The notes beneath the pieces are model-generated. The model did no database searches, was not told where the DNA came from, and saw only the letters and a program-made list of their open reading frames with translations. A program made the position numbers and the translations under genes. Below are positions 5,026-36,207 of a stretch of DNA of 62,855 nt, piece by piece (the first letter of the stretch is position 1; each line of letters opens with the position of its first letter). Origin of the DNA: a virus. The stretch lies in the IMG/VR virus record IMGVR_UViG_3300046543_000285, positions 1 to 62,855 of that record, one strand, 5' to 3'.

Positions 5026-5192
5026 TGCTCTGCCTCCTGACAAACCGTAAACGGCTCCATCTTGAGAGCGCGTCTGGCATGCTCGCGGATGTAATCCGGT
5101 GTAGGTCCGCTTTCAAAGTTGCCGAACGCTATCTCCGTCAGAGCGTCCCAATAGGCGTCTAGCTCGGCGGTCGTTTTGGATTGGTCAGTCAT
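5022..5192 (-). CDS. Hypothetical protein, 56 aa
   Basis: A short frame starting at ATG 5192 and ending in a TGA that overlaps the next start. The product reads MTDQSKTTAELDAYWDALTE, then a helix and a basic stretch (YIREHARRALKM), ending ...CQEAEQ. The distal part contains the GGAGG ribosome site of the next gene. The good reading frame and the coupling support it. No family is recognised. Confidence 0.55.
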   Translation of the reverse strand: MTDQSKTTAELDAYWDALTEIAFGNFESGPTPDYIREHARRALKMEPFTVCQEAEQ

Positions 5193-8400: not shown

Positions 8401-8477
8401 GGGGCCGTGGCTCAAATGGATGAGCACCGATATCCTACATCGGACATATGCAGGTTCGAATCCTGTCGGCCTCGCCA
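8401..8477 (+). tRNA. tRNA-Arg (anticodon CCU), with encoded CCA
   Basis: A full cloverleaf can be drawn. The acceptor GGGGCCG pairs with CGGCCTC (one G-U). The D-stem is GCTC/GAGC around a GG-containing loop. The anticodon stem CCGAT/ATCGG is perfect with loop ATCCTAC (anticodon CCT). The T-arm is GCAGG-TTCGAAT-CCTGT. The discriminator is G at 8474 and CCA is encoded at 8475-8477. It decodes AGG, a codon usually rare in GC-rich hosts. It lies at the end of a rightward operon and is intact. Confidence 0.92.
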
Positions 8478-28721: not shown

Positions 28722-29767
28722 GCTGCCCTTCCTGTCACCGGCTGTGATGCGCTGTTAATCAATCCTTGCTGCCCAGGCACAAGCGCGGGCGTTCCAGTCA
28801 CAGGCGCAGAACTAGCAACCGCCTTGGGCGCCGTGATATTTGCAACCTGCTGCTTGGTCAGCGACGCCGCAGCATTGTTCGCCGCTGCCTGCGCCTGGAG
28901 TGCGCTAACCTGTGCCGGCGTTAGCGTGGAAGTCGCGCCACTCAGTAACGAGCCACCAGCTTGCAGCGCACCGAAGGCCAGTGTGGGGTGCTTTTCAACG
29001 AAGTTCATGACGCCACTGAGCGCGCCAGAGGAACCATCCGCAGCCTTGGATACCGACGTATCGAACGGAACGTCAGTTGCGTCCGTTGATGACGCTGCGG
29101 TCGTGGCAGGCCCAGTCGGTTGCGGCACAGGGTTCGCAGCCGTCGCTGGATTAGTCGCCGTGGTTGGCGTGCCACTCGCCGCCGCTGTCGTTGTATCTGT
29201 GCCAGTCGTGCCAGGCGCCACTACGTCAGCCGGATTAGCGGACTCCGATGTGGTGGATAGCAGGTTAATATCACCGCCAGTAGGCGCAGAACCCAGCCCG
29301 CTGTTGAGCAAGCCACCAGCCGGGTTCGCCGCAGCTTCGGCAGCATCCATGGTCGCTGGAACATCGCCAGGCACCTGACTGGCCAGATCCCCCACAATAT
29401 CCGGCGCCGCACCACTCGCCGCAGACGCTGCTATGCTGGCAGCCGGGTTCGCTGCGGCTTCGGCGGCGTCCATGGTGGTGACAGCCCCGCCAGCCACGTC
29501 CGTGGCCCCGGCCGCGCCAACAGCCCCTGCCCCCGCCTCCCCAGCCGTAGCGCCGCCTGTGATCGCCGCAGAGCCAACCCCGAGCGCGCTGGTCGCCAGG
29601 GCACCGACGCCCCCCACGAGGCCGAGCCCCAGCCCGATCATGCTCAGCGTCTTGTTCTTCGTCACGGCGCCCACGGCACCCACGACCGCTCCCACAACCG
29701 CGACCGATTCCAGGACGGTGGTGACGCTGATGGCGGCAGCGGCGCCTACGGCTACGACTAGGCCCAC
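28718..29767 (-). CDS. Ala/Gly/Thr-rich internal virion protein, 349 aa
   Basis: The N-terminal 70 residues hold two hydrophobic Gly-rich helices (LESVAVVGAVVGAVGAV, IGLGLGLVGGVGALATSALG). Then come repeats of MDAAEAAANPA (two exact copies, plus-strand near 29325 and 29446) and Thr/Ala linkers. The last 110 residues are helical (VSALQAQAAANNAAASLTKQ). Hydrophobic N-termini of this kind occur in podovirus pilot or ejection proteins that insert into membranes. ATGA-coupled to the next gene. Confidence 0.55.
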   Translation of the reverse strand: MGLVVAVGAAAAISVTTVLESVAVVGAVVGAVGAVTKNKTLSMIGLGLGLVGGVGALATSALGVGSAAITGGATAGEAGAGAVGAAGATDVAGGAVTTMDAAEAAANPAASIAASAASGAAPDIVGDLASQVPGDVPATMDAAEAAANPAGGLLNSGLGSAPTGGDINLLSTTSESANPADVVAPGTTGTDTTTAAASGTPTTATNPATAANPVPQPTGPATTAASSTDATDVPFDTSVSKAADGSSGALSGVMNFVEKHPTLAFGALQAGGSLLSGATSTLTPAQVSALQAQAAANNAAASLTKQQVANITAPKAVASSAPVTGTPALVPGQQGLINSASQPVTGRAA

Positions 29768-30825
29768 GGGCGGTCCTCCAAATCCATGCCGTAGAGCATC
29801 CCTTCGGGGTGAAAGCCTAGCCGCTCATACAGCGAGCCAAGCCGGGGGCCGTCCCCACGAATGCCGGTGCGAGCAACCACGCGCGGAATACCCTTCGCGC
29901 GCAATAACTCAATCGCCTTGCTCTGCAACCGCCGCCCCAATCCAGGGCAGTCCGGAGATGCGTAAGGCAACAGGTTCTGCGCCATCAGACGATCGCGGTG
30001 ATCGGCGTCGGGGCTGATGAGGGAAATTACGTAACCGAACATGCGTCCGTTCACTCTGGCCGTCGTGATCTGCATCACGCCGGCTGCATCCAACTGGCGC
30101 CCGAGCGGAATGTTCTTCAACATCGCACCGTCTGCGTCTTGGTCAGTCTGGGCGAGATGATGCCGAAACAGATGCTGCGCATCTCTAAGCCACCGCTCAA
30201 ACGGCTCTTCCTGAAACACGAACCCGTCCATCGACGGTCGCGTGCCATATTGGCGCGTCAGTTGCGCCAGTGTCGCCTGCTTCGCCGCCCGCTCCAGCTT
30301 CCGGATCTGCGGTAGGTAGGCGCGGCAATAACGGACCTGGGCGGCGAGATTGCCCGAGATGCGCTGGCCGTTCCACGAGGCCCACCAGTCGTGGTCGTGT
30401 GGATACGGCAGGCAATGCTCGAACAAACCAGCGCATGTGGCTTCATCGACCAGGTCGGAGAACTCCACCCGCATCACGCCGAGAATGCGCCTCTCGACCT
30501 GATCTAGCTTCCGATCGGTTGCGCGCAACACCTTGTCCATCGCCGCCATATCAGTCGCCGGCAGAACGCGCATTACGCTATCCAGCACATCCTCGACCTG
30601 GCGGCGCACCGTCACGATCTTGGCGTCAGGAGGCAGGAGGCGCCAGAACGGCGCAGCAGCAGTTTCAACGGTGCCAATGTCTGGCTGCGTGAACCACGAC
30701 CGCACGTCCTCTAACGACCGGCAATGCTGAAGCTCGTCATGGCCGCAATGCCACGAGCCATAGGAGAGAAAGCGGGAAAGCCAGTAGGTTCTACTGCGAG
30801 GCAGAGCCAGGACGATGAAAGCCAT
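29758..30825 (-). CDS. Sulfotransferase-like plus GNAT acetyltransferase fusion, 355 aa
   Basis: The N-terminal part (residues 1-210) looks like a sulfotransferase-type P-loop fold. A strand and loop FIVLALPRSRTYWLSRFL sit where such enzymes bind the 5'-phosphosulfate, and VRRQVEDVLDSVMR matches the 3'-phosphate-binding Arg/Ser region. The C-terminal 120 residues match GNAT N-acetyltransferases: GRMFGYVISLISPD, the acetyl-CoA-like loop PGLGRRLQSKAIELLRAKGI and SLYERLGFHPEGMLYGMDL. Both lie in one uninterrupted frame inside the internal-virion/tail gene block, coupled on both sides. It may modify virion or host components. The enzymatic assignment of the first half is less certain. Confidence 0.65.
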   Translation of the reverse strand: MAFIVLALPRSRTYWLSRFLSYGSWHCGHDELQHCRSLEDVRSWFTQPDIGTVETAAAPFWRLLPPDAKIVTVRRQVEDVLDSVMRVLPATDMAAMDKVLRATDRKLDQVERRILGVMRVEFSDLVDEATCAGLFEHCLPYPHDHDWWASWNGQRISGNLAAQVRYCRAYLPQIRKLERAAKQATLAQLTRQYGTRPSMDGFVFQEEPFERWLRDAQHLFRHHLAQTDQDADGAMLKNIPLGRQLDAAGVMQITTARVNGRMFGYVISLISPDADHRDRLMAQNLLPYASPDCPGLGRRLQSKAIELLRAKGIPRVVARTGIRGDGPRLGSLYERLGFHPEGMLYGMDLEDRPWA

Positions 30826-32688: not shown

Positions 32689-33999
32689 CTATAGGTCCGA
32701 AGATGCAGTTATCGTGGTATTTATGGAGAACCCGGTCGTAGCAACAGCAGTTGCCGTAATATAAACACTACTTATAGTACTTCCCCCCGAAACCCCGCTC
32801 AAGTTTGTGTTAGTAACATTTATTAGAACTAAAGTCGGAGTTACACGCATCGCTGTCAATAAGGAGTTACTTACTGCAACACTAGTTCCCGCCGGCACAT
32901 TTCCATTAAAAATAATCTGAATAACCTGAAAAAACCGCAAACACTCGATTGTCTGAAGAGCATAATCCAGCTTTTCAAAGGATGAGGCTGATGGAGCTAT
33001 CTCTAGCTGCATTGCCCAAAATGAGAAGATACCAGTTTGAACGCCAATACCACCAGCTTCGGTATTAAAACTAGCCCCAGACGAAAGCCAAAAATTAAAC
33101 TCCAAAAAATCTGTCTGAGGTGTAGTCCCGAATGTCTTACCAGACACACTCGTTATCGCAAATGTCTTGCTATAGCGGGTCCATGTAGTAGACAATGTGA
33201 CAGTCTGAGCGGTGCCCACTACAACCGTAGATGGGCTCCCACCAGTTCCAAAAGATTGCTGCCAATTAAGTCCTATCGTTGGCGCACCTGAAGTAGCTTT
33301 TGCCCAAAAACTAACAGTCACAGTCTTACCACTCGTCCGTTTCACGCCTTCCATTCGCTGGTTGATTTCATCAAAATCACCCGCACCTGAACCGCCCGTA
33401 ACGGTATAAACAAGTGCGCGTTGAGCGGCTTCGTCGCCAATCGCGGTACGGTCAGCATCACTGAGTGATGCAACACTGACAGATCCAGTGCCACCACCAG
33501 TGCCGCGCCCCATCGACCACCGATCAGAGGTGTACCCTGTTGTCGTGAACGGCCCAAAACCACGTTGCGCAACAAGAAACTCAGGGTTGTGCAAAAGGTT
33601 GCGGCCTATGTTGTTATACGCCAGCGCCTCGGCCGCTATTGCCCGCGTTGTCTCGGCCGTGATCGCCGCCGCCCTAGTCGTTGCCTCAGTCGTGATCGCA
33701 GATGCGCGGGTCGTCGCCTCAGTTGTAATCGCTGTCGCGTTGGCCGCCTCTGCCGTCATTGCGCGCGTCGTCTCGACTGCAATATCTGAAGTCATCGCCA
33801 GCGTTCCAGGAGCGCTCGGCAGCGTAAAGGTGAAATTCCCCAACTGCGCAAAGATGGTGTTGAAAACGCCTGTCGTGGTAATGCGCGGCATCTGATCAAA
33901 GCCAGAGCCGATAGCAGCGAACTCGCCGCGAACTACGGACGATAGTCCATCCGCGCCAGTCGTTGGGTTACCTGTCGGATTATAGAACGGATTGGTAAT
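32689..33999 (-). CDS. Tail fibre protein, 436 aa, with ATT start codon
   Basis: The N-terminus reads (M)TNPFYNPTGNPTTGADGLSS, a virion-attachment motif seen in many phage fibre proteins. It lies upstream of the first ATG (33891). In that frame the only codon at the start position is ATT (33999-33997), six bases after a perfect AGGAGG; an in-frame TGA, the upstream gene's stop, precedes it. No ATG, GTG or TTG is available. A helical shaft of ITTEATTRA-type repeats (about residues 80-125) precedes a beta-sandwich receptor-binding domain (NPEFLVAQRG...DRW, FWAKATSG). The distal part is clearly more AT-rich than the rest of the genome. Confidence 0.85.
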   Translation of the reverse strand: MTNPFYNPTGNPTTGADGLSSVVRGEFAAIGSGFDQMPRITTTGVFNTIFAQLGNFTFTLPSAPGTLAMTSDIAVETTRAMTAEAANATAITTEATTRASAITTEATTRAAAITAETTRAIAAEALAYNNIGRNLLHNPEFLVAQRGFGPFTTTGYTSDRWSMGRGTGGGTGSVSVASLSDADRTAIGDEAAQRALVYTVTGGSGAGDFDEINQRMEGVKRTSGKTVTVSFWAKATSGAPTIGLNWQQSFGTGGSPSTVVVGTAQTVTLSTTWTRYSKTFAITSVSGKTFGTTPQTDFLEFNFWLSSGASFNTEAGGIGVQTGIFSFWAMQLEIAPSASSFEKLDYALQTIECLRFFQVIQIIFNGNVPAGTSVAVSNSLLTAMRVTPTLVLINVTNTNLSGVSGGSTISSVYITATAVATTGFSINTTITASSDL

Positions 34000-34017
34000 G
34001 ACACACCTCCTTTCCGG

Positions 34018-36207
34018 TCATACGCGCATTCCTCGACGCATAGAATACTGGTGTATGACGGAATTAACCGTGTAGGCTGCGATGTAGTTGGTTCCAGATG
34101 CGATCGTGACGCGAATATTCTCCGCAGTCCCGGTCTCATCAACATCAGTCGGTATCAAACCCGTGCCGTCCCACACGAAGTTATCCCACACGAATTGATC
34201 CCAATGCGGCACACCACCAAGGTTGAGCACCTGCAAGGTCGGCGGAAGCTGCGGAATCTGCGCATTGCTGTAGCCAAGCTGCCAGCCGTACTGAATTTCC
34301 GCGTAGCTATCGCCCTGCACCTCGATAGAGGCAGCGCGAAATCGCTTCAGGATGCGCGGCGACTTTACCTGATCCCAAGCCGTCACGATGTAAGCAGAGA
34401 TTATAGCGCCATCGAAACTCGTTCCCACGTCAAGCTGAAAGACATATCCGGCTTCCGAGCCAGCATATGTCGCCTCGTCGTCGGTGATCAGATTAGTGGT
34501 ATCGACGCATGAGAGAACGTCGGGGAATAGCACCAGACCACATCCAAGATATTGCTGATTAAGAATCGTGGCATACAACCCATAACCATCGCCAAAGAAC
34601 AGTCGATACTGGCTCTTTTCCCGGTTAATCGAAGACGCCACCAGGTTTCCACGCTCGCGCGCTATGAATGGAAGGATGTTCTTGGTCAACGTGGTCGGCA
34701 GAAAGTTTCCCCAGTTCAGCGTGGTCTTCAACGTGATAACACCAAGATCATCGAGGACGAACGTATCGAACAGGTTTTGCATGCTATACGGCACAGCGCC
34801 GATGCCGCTGTTGAACGTCACATAGTTGAACGTCGTGGGATCGGTGCCATACAGGAAAGAGGTGTTGGTCCTTAGATAGACGCCCAAAGTTGCCGTGGTC
34901 TGGCTGCCTGGCAGAGTAAGCATGCCAGTGATCGTGTCACCCGTTGCAATCTCGCCACCGCCATCCACAGCGGACCACTTGAACGGATTGCCGGCTGCGG
35001 AATAGATCAGCGAGGCGTCCTGCGAGACAAACAGAATGTTCTTGTGGATACGGATATGCGAAGGCCGATCTAGCGTAAGCCCGGTACTGATCGGCACTAA
35101 TGCATCACCATCAAACTCAAAGCACTTATTGACCCCATCGCAGCCGTAAATGCGCCGCGTGATCAATTGCCCGGAGAAGTTACCCTTGTCGAACTCAAAC
35201 CGCCCCCCGGCCGCCATGGTGATAGCCGTCTGCGCTCCTGAGAGCGTGACCGTTGCTCCTGATGTGGTGTGCGCAGCGCCGGCCGCGAAATTGCCTCCAG
35301 CAGGCGTCGTGACGACGAACTGACCGACAGCGCTTCCAGTCCAAGAGCCAGATTGCCACACTACCCGCTTGATCGTGGCCGTGACGCCACCTTGCGTCAG
35401 GGTCTCGCCGTCAAACGGCTCAGAAGTCCCGCCTGCCGTGAAAGACACAATGTCGTAGTAAGGCACCAGCACCCAGCCAGTAGACGTGGCCCTGTAGAGC
35501 AACTCCGCTGTAGCGCCTACGTTATCACGGAACGCATAGACATGATCGACGCCGGCAAAGGCCATGGCAACCACACCGCGAACCGGCCCACTGCCAGGAA
35601 CCTTCTGGATCATTGCCCGGTAAACGTCAGCCGCAGCAGCGGTGTATATCGCCTTGGTTTTTGCGTTAATCCCAACCGTCAGCGTGGTGGCATTACCGAT
35701 AACAATCGACCCTGCCGTATCCCAGGTAAACGCGTCCCACACGAAGGAATCCCACATGGGAATCGGCGTGGCTACCGATAGGGAGTTCGTCCCATCGAAG
35801 ATACCGGTAACTTGGGTCAACACGATATAGGGCGTCGGCGCGGTCACAACGGCTGCAATTATCCCTGTAGCGCCACTACCCGTCTGCGTGACAGTCTGTC
35901 CGATCATAGGGGTCAGGATAAACGAGGCTACCTGAACGATGGTGTAAGTCGCAGCACTCGGGGACGGTCGTCCATCGAAACGCTCGTAACCAGCAATCCT
36001 GGAGTAGCCACCGAACTGCGCTACCTCGAAGTTAACCCCATCATGCAACGCGCCAGGCTGTAGGCGCAGCGTTGGTGTTACGAGGTCGAGGCCGCCAGGA
36101 TAGGAGACACCTTGCGCCGTCGTCCCACCCCCGAGTTGCGTCTGGGTGTATTGAACCTTGACCCAGGATTGTTTTGGAACGGCATTCACGCCAGTGCCCC
36201 AGACCAC
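34018..36207 (-). CDS. Tail tube/nozzle-like protein (T7 gp12-like position), 729 aa
   Basis: The N-terminal YPGGLDLVTPTLRLQPGALH then DGVNFEVAQFGGYSRIAGYE is the start seen in podovirus tail tubular B / stabilisation-type proteins. The remainder is beta-rich (HWDQFVWDNFVWDGTG, RVTIASGTNYIAAYTV). The motif WDSFVWDAFTWDT near residue 160 recurs as WDQFVWDNFVWDG near 675. It lies directly after the adaptor-like gene and before the fibre, as in short-tailed phages. The start at 36207 overlaps the upstream gene by 22 bp. It probably forms the tail nozzle that carries fibres. Confidence 0.7.
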   Translation of the reverse strand: MVWGTGVNAVPKQSWVKVQYTQTQLGGGTTAQGVSYPGGLDLVTPTLRLQPGALHDGVNFEVAQFGGYSRIAGYERFDGRPSPSAATYTIVQVASFILTPMIGQTVTQTGSGATGIIAAVVTAPTPYIVLTQVTGIFDGTNSLSVATPIPMWDSFVWDAFTWDTAGSIVIGNATTLTVGINAKTKAIYTAAAADVYRAMIQKVPGSGPVRGVVAMAFAGVDHVYAFRDNVGATAELLYRATSTGWVLVPYYDIVSFTAGGTSEPFDGETLTQGGVTATIKRVVWQSGSWTGSAVGQFVVTTPAGGNFAAGAAHTTSGATVTLSGAQTAITMAAGGRFEFDKGNFSGQLITRRIYGCDGVNKCFEFDGDALVPISTGLTLDRPSHIRIHKNILFVSQDASLIYSAAGNPFKWSAVDGGGEIATGDTITGMLTLPGSQTTATLGVYLRTNTSFLYGTDPTTFNYVTFNSGIGAVPYSMQNLFDTFVLDDLGVITLKTTLNWGNFLPTTLTKNILPFIARERGNLVASSINREKSQYRLFFGDGYGLYATILNQQYLGCGLVLFPDVLSCVDTTNLITDDEATYAGSEAGYVFQLDVGTSFDGAIISAYIVTAWDQVKSPRILKRFRAASIEVQGDSYAEIQYGWQLGYSNAQIPQLPPTLQVLNLGGVPHWDQFVWDNFVWDGTGLIPTDVDETGTAENIRVTIASGTNYIAAYTVNSVIHQYSMRRGMRV

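Follow-up and report, generated by a model that had tools for sequence, protein, structure and literature searches.

A few bacterial genes start at AUU or AUC; infC does so in E. coli (AUU) and Streptomyces (AUC), and pcnB of E. coli starts at AUU. Hecht et al. reportedly found, in 2017, initiation from all 64 codons. In S. aureus, extended Shine-Dalgarno (SD) sequences direct AUU and AUA starts with reduced yield (PMC13009471). The non-canonical starts of infC and of Streptomyces sigR are repressed by IF3 (PMC5472188), and a phage ORF has been annotated with a GTC start (PMC6389784). Re-initiation in E. coli is also sensitive to IF3, and an SD lessens this sensitivity (PMC2268962). AUU starts are thus already known, as are free-standing phage endonucleases with stop/start overlaps (PMC2988022). 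Searching the open-access literature, outside which most subscription papers lie, we found no description of AUU, AUC or AUA starts in a phage structural gene, of a recurrent series of such starts, or of a link between them and endonuclease insertion.

Here we analysed a viral DNA of 62,855 nucleotides (the window), in which, judging from the sequence, a tail fibre gene has very probably lost its normal ATG start and is now started by ATT. Read from ATT, the gene (32689-33999, minus strand) has 436 codons before its stop and encodes a conserved N-terminal segment followed by a carbohydrate-binding-like region. The product belongs to a tail fibre family by its profile match to phrog_4492 (E 2.1e-49), and it also matches the carbohydrate-binding domain CBM_4_9 (5.9e-7). 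The upstream virion gene (34018-36207, minus strand; 729 aa) served to gather and order the relatives. Elsewhere in the virion gene cluster, an ORF at 29758-30825 (minus strand) shows an N-terminal hydrolase-like and a C-terminal acetyltransferase-like match. The single tRNA found in the window is a tRNA-Arg with anticodon CCT (8401-8477, plus strand).

On the minus strand the junction of the two genes reads ...CGCGTA-TGA(34020-34018)-CCGGAAAGGAGG-TGTGTC-ATT(33999-33997)-ACCAATCCGTTC..., so that the upstream gene ends in ...CGC GTA TGA, followed by CCGGAAAGGAGGTGTGTC and then by ATT ACC AAT CCG TTC TAT AAT. An earlier note on this DNA had proposed the ATT start from the letters of the window, and its reading of the junction was borne out. 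The upstream TGA (34020-34018) lies in frame with the fibre, 18 bases before ATT, and the in-frame codons between them are CCG GAA AGG AGG TGT GTC. A perfect AGGAGG (34011-34006) sits within the SD AAAGGAGG (34013-34006), separated from ATT by a 6-nt spacer (34005-34000). No ATG, GTG or TTG is available from the TGA to the first in-frame ATG (33891-33889), which is codon 37 when ATT is counted as codon 1; a default start at this ATG skips 36 codons, ATT included. The note had also recognised a conserved phage-fibre N-terminus ahead of this ATG and had suggested an alignment with homologues. Performing this alignment, we find that TNPFYNPTGNP is conserved in the relatives and that their start codon directly precedes it, which places ATT at the Met position.

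The two candidate starts differ strongly in their predicted pairing with the anti-SD, the duplex energies being -12.9 kcal/mol before ATT and -1.7 kcal/mol at the internal ATG. Predicted RNA structure did not separate them, the mean unpaired probability being 0.34 for the SD, 0.40 for ATT and 0.34 for the internal ATG. The skipped residues show the mark of purifying selection. Comparing the window with 17 relatives over the 34 codons after the start, we counted 154, 102 and 370 changes at codon positions 1, 2 and 3, respectively, in pairs that share ancestry and are not independent. For the window and L004, a relative that also carries ATT, dN is 0.18 and dS about 2.3 over the skipped N-terminus. 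L004 differs from L009 at 7/34 amino acids, and L007, the ATG-bearing sister of L004, also differs from L009 at 7/34; part of the constraint measured on the N-terminus predates the start change, which makes this an indirect test. Taken with homology, SD strength and spacing, and the ATT, ATC or ATA codons that four further phages have at this position, this selection makes ATT well supported as the start.

We gathered the relatives both through the upstream gene and through the fibre N-terminus. The junction census was automated, and L087 and L089 were placed by eye (ATG after an endonuclease gene). This gave about 70 readable, non-redundant junctions. In 65 of them an ATG, GTG or TTG lies close to the aligned position, two or three of these fibres having a longer N-terminus, and the other five have ATT, ATC or ATA (ATH). 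In most relatives, the start codon shares bases with the upstream stop (for example ATGACC, GTGACC or TTGAAC) or comes after it, in the form TGATGGCC. The ATH junctions are those of the window (ATT), L004 (ATT), L016 (ATC), L012 (ATA) and L050/L115 (ATT). A non-canonical codon is therefore present in more than one relative, as ATT, ATC or ATA and with no single codon conserved. Fibre frames are intact in all five ATH phages. Some other fibres, after the upstream gene in L100, L102 and L047, seem to have their conserved N-terminus preceded by a hydrophobic stretch that resembles a signal peptide. The GTG-started fibre of L071 is preceded, after position 5100, by an inserted small ORF with many WD-x-F/WDNF motifs, which resemble the WDxFVWD repeats found towards the end of the upstream gene.

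The four further ATH phages were found by homology, with the codon not consulted. The probability that all four carry ATH by chance is of the order of 1e-5 at about 3/61 per random codon, or about (3/7)^4 = 3% if each is a point-mutated ATG. L050 and L115 come from different metagenomes, are identical over 756 nt and both have ATT; this agreement excludes a random base error there. L012 has a weaker SD and is a single contig, and its ATA could be a sequencing error. In L004, a TTG lies in frame 15 nt upstream of ATT and could serve as an alternative start; the window, L016, L012 and L050 have no canonical alternative, and the next canonical codon after ATH is codon 47 in L016 and codon 39 in L012.

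Duplex energies at the five ATH sites averaged -10.8 kcal/mol, compared with -6.8 kcal/mol for 28 canonical relatives (P=0.0016, one-sided Mann-Whitney; one canonical row, L048, is offset by one codon), as is expected if a weak codon needs rescue. The SD-ATH spacing is 6 nt in 4/5 of these junctions. The L050 junction differs in that the upstream stop is TAG without overlap, and it has the same GGAGG-N6-ATT. In a maximum-likelihood phylogeny built from the upstream gene, where L004 is sister to L007, the ATH state takes a minimum of four changes along well-supported branches, a count that recombination at the junction could reduce.

We also scanned the viral contigs by pattern. AGGAGG-N3-10-ATH-ACN-AAY-CCN gave no match in them, and a looser pattern returned L050/L114, L115 and L004/L116. 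The sole addition of a still looser scan, L159, was rejected because it matched by chance, out of frame, within a primase/helicase-like gene. A general survey of long frames preceded by an SD and a non-start codon gave mostly spurious frames and no useful enrichment test. Among cultured phages, the fibre matches were weak and the upstream-gene matches distant (<60% identity), so these offered no comparable annotated start.

The earlier note saw one isolated start; the window ATT now appears as a member of a recurrent ATH series that is linked to insertions, in two phages to an endonuclease gene. The note left out three features of this junction, namely a vestigial ATGA overlap (34021-34018), the 22-bp insert that displaces it and the endonuclease gene that some relatives have there. 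L005 and relatives like it start the fibre at this ATGA, the junction reading ATGACC-AACCCG in L005 versus ATGACC-GGAAAGGAGGTGTGTCATTACC-AATCCG in the window. The insert (33994-34015, minus strand) provides the SD, ATT and a repeated ACC and shifts the old ATG into another frame. The vestigial ATG now opens a 13-codon mini-ORF, MTGKEVCHYQSVL (33980-34021, minus strand), which ends with TAA (33982-33980) 14 nt past ATT. Relative to the overlap junction, the inserts measure 22 nt in the window, 16 in L012, 607 in L004 and 553 in L016, all 1 modulo 3.

In L004 (7163-7783) and L016 (6031-6600), an intact HNH/endonuclease-VII-like gene separates the fibre gene from the upstream virion gene. The endonuclease genes of the two phages are 54% identical to each other and match phrog_1035 of the endonuclease VII/HNH type (E 2.2e-20 and 5.9e-17), and their Pfam HNH match is weak and below its cut-off. 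For these putative homing endonucleases, what is seen is the insertion at the junction. The endonuclease frame of L016 opens at the TTGA overlap with which L009 and similar relatives begin the fibre, and the inserted endonuclease seems to have taken over the old fibre start codon in both phages. At the 3′ end, the gene overlaps the fibre start (TTTGAGGAGGCGCGTC-ATT in L004 and CTTCAGGAGGCGTGCT-ATC in L016), its last codons providing AGGAGG-N6-ATH. AGGAGG-YGYGYY-ATH is common to L004, L016 and the window. A related endonuclease gene also occupies this junction in the more distant L087 and L089, whose fibres retain an ATG start behind TTTGAGGATTCAACTTT; hence insertion does not force a codon change. 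In L087/L089, as in L004 and L016, the SD for the fibre lies within the last endonuclease codons.

In all likelihood, the fibre is made from AUU (33999-33997) by ordinary fMet initiation, which a near-perfect SD at optimal spacing would permit and ribosomes arriving from upstream translation would probably help. Most likely, 30S subunits would bind the strong SD and begin with fMet at AUU. Ribosomes that end the upstream gene 18 nt before AUU could re-initiate there, and those that end the mini-ORF (the endonuclease in L004 and L016) 14 nt past AUU could also feed it. An insertion that parted the old coupled start from the fibre would have led to the ATH state; in L004 and L016 this would be the intact endonuclease gene, using that start region. 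For the window, we give about an even chance to descent from such an insertion with the endonuclease since lost, and likewise to the 22 bp being the scar of the lost gene. The scar reading draws on about 12 nt plus the frame logic, and no endonuclease homologue was found elsewhere in the window. An independent small insertion is the alternative reading of the 22 bp. More tentatively, at slightly under an even chance, endonuclease insertion may repeatedly capture the coupled start and leave the structural gene with AUU, AUC or AUA and an SD from the last endonuclease codons, the weak start staying as a scar after loss.

Could the true codon be ATG, misread by sequencing or assembly? ATT is one base from ATG, and base 33997 has one assembly as support. 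A contig from another metagenome, L001, is 100% identical over 4253 nt, and its first base corresponds to window 33944, 53 nt past the start codon; its break there may stem from differences between strains at the junction. We consider such an error improbable, given that four further phages have ATH at this position and that L050 agrees with L115. Moreover, ATT lies inside the insert that displaced the old ATG, and it is thus not simply a miscalled ancestral ATG. A start at the internal ATG 33891, with the preceding stretch untranslated, is the default choice of a gene caller, as the first canonical in-frame start. It is very unlikely here, since this ATG has no SD, the residues it would forgo are a conserved N-terminus under purifying selection, and the corresponding codon comes as late as 47 and 39 in L016 and L012.

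SD-stimulated frameshifting is known from prfB, and the SD of the window lies inside the mini-ORF, whose ATG overlaps the upstream stop at the ancestral position. A ribosome might therefore start at the vestigial ATG 34021 and shift by +1 over the internal SD into the fibre frame. However, no common slippery codon was seen, the L004 and L016 product would be an endonuclease-fibre fusion, the mini-ORF ATG of L050 overlaps the SD itself, and the 6-nt SD-ATH spacing, constant in 4/5 junctions, would be left unexplained. We find this route as hard to credit as the internal ATG. Somewhat less remote, and still unlikely, is that the AUU start was selected as a regulatory device that holds fibre levels low or ties them to IF3, as in infC or sigR; non-canonical starts are indeed repressed by IF3 (PMC5472188; PMC2268962). 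Yet the relatives use ATG, GTG and TTG freely, and the ATH codon itself is not fixed, being ATT, ATC or ATA. The stronger SDs at the ATH sites also look more like compensation than like selection for low output. By analogy with infC, sigR, cvfC1 and ccpN, IF3 dependence and a low fibre dosage are plausible for the AUU start that we prefer.

Like infC and pcnB, the locus would rely on AUU or AUC alone for its start. Those are cellular genes, infC being autoregulated through IF3, whereas the window gene encodes a virion structural protein and relatives differ in its codon. S. aureus cvfC1 (AUU), ccpN and citZ (both AUA) likewise combine AUH starts with a strong or extended SD; unlike those conserved and supposedly regulatory starts (PMC13009471), the fibre ATH codons repeatedly replaced ATG, GTG or TTG. 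The GTC start of sigR is also non-canonical, was missed by annotation and is sensitive to IF3, but it concerns another codon and a regulatory gene, with no insertion link (PMC5472188). In T-even phages, free-standing genes for HNH homing endonucleases, mobE among them, likewise lie between phage genes and are coupled upstream via an overlapping stop and start (PMC2988022). In contrast to these, the putatively homing endonucleases of L004 and L016 also overlap, at the 3′ end, a downstream start that is now ATT or ATC.

If the AUU start is real, a virion structural gene joins the short list of genes started by AUU, AUC or AUA, and natural ATG, GTG, TTG, ATT, ATC and ATA versions of one junction are open to direct comparison. 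An insertion plus a strong SD is a suggested route by which such starts may originate. Gene callers that accept ATG, GTG and TTG only would clip the conserved fibre N-terminus, here by 36 codons.
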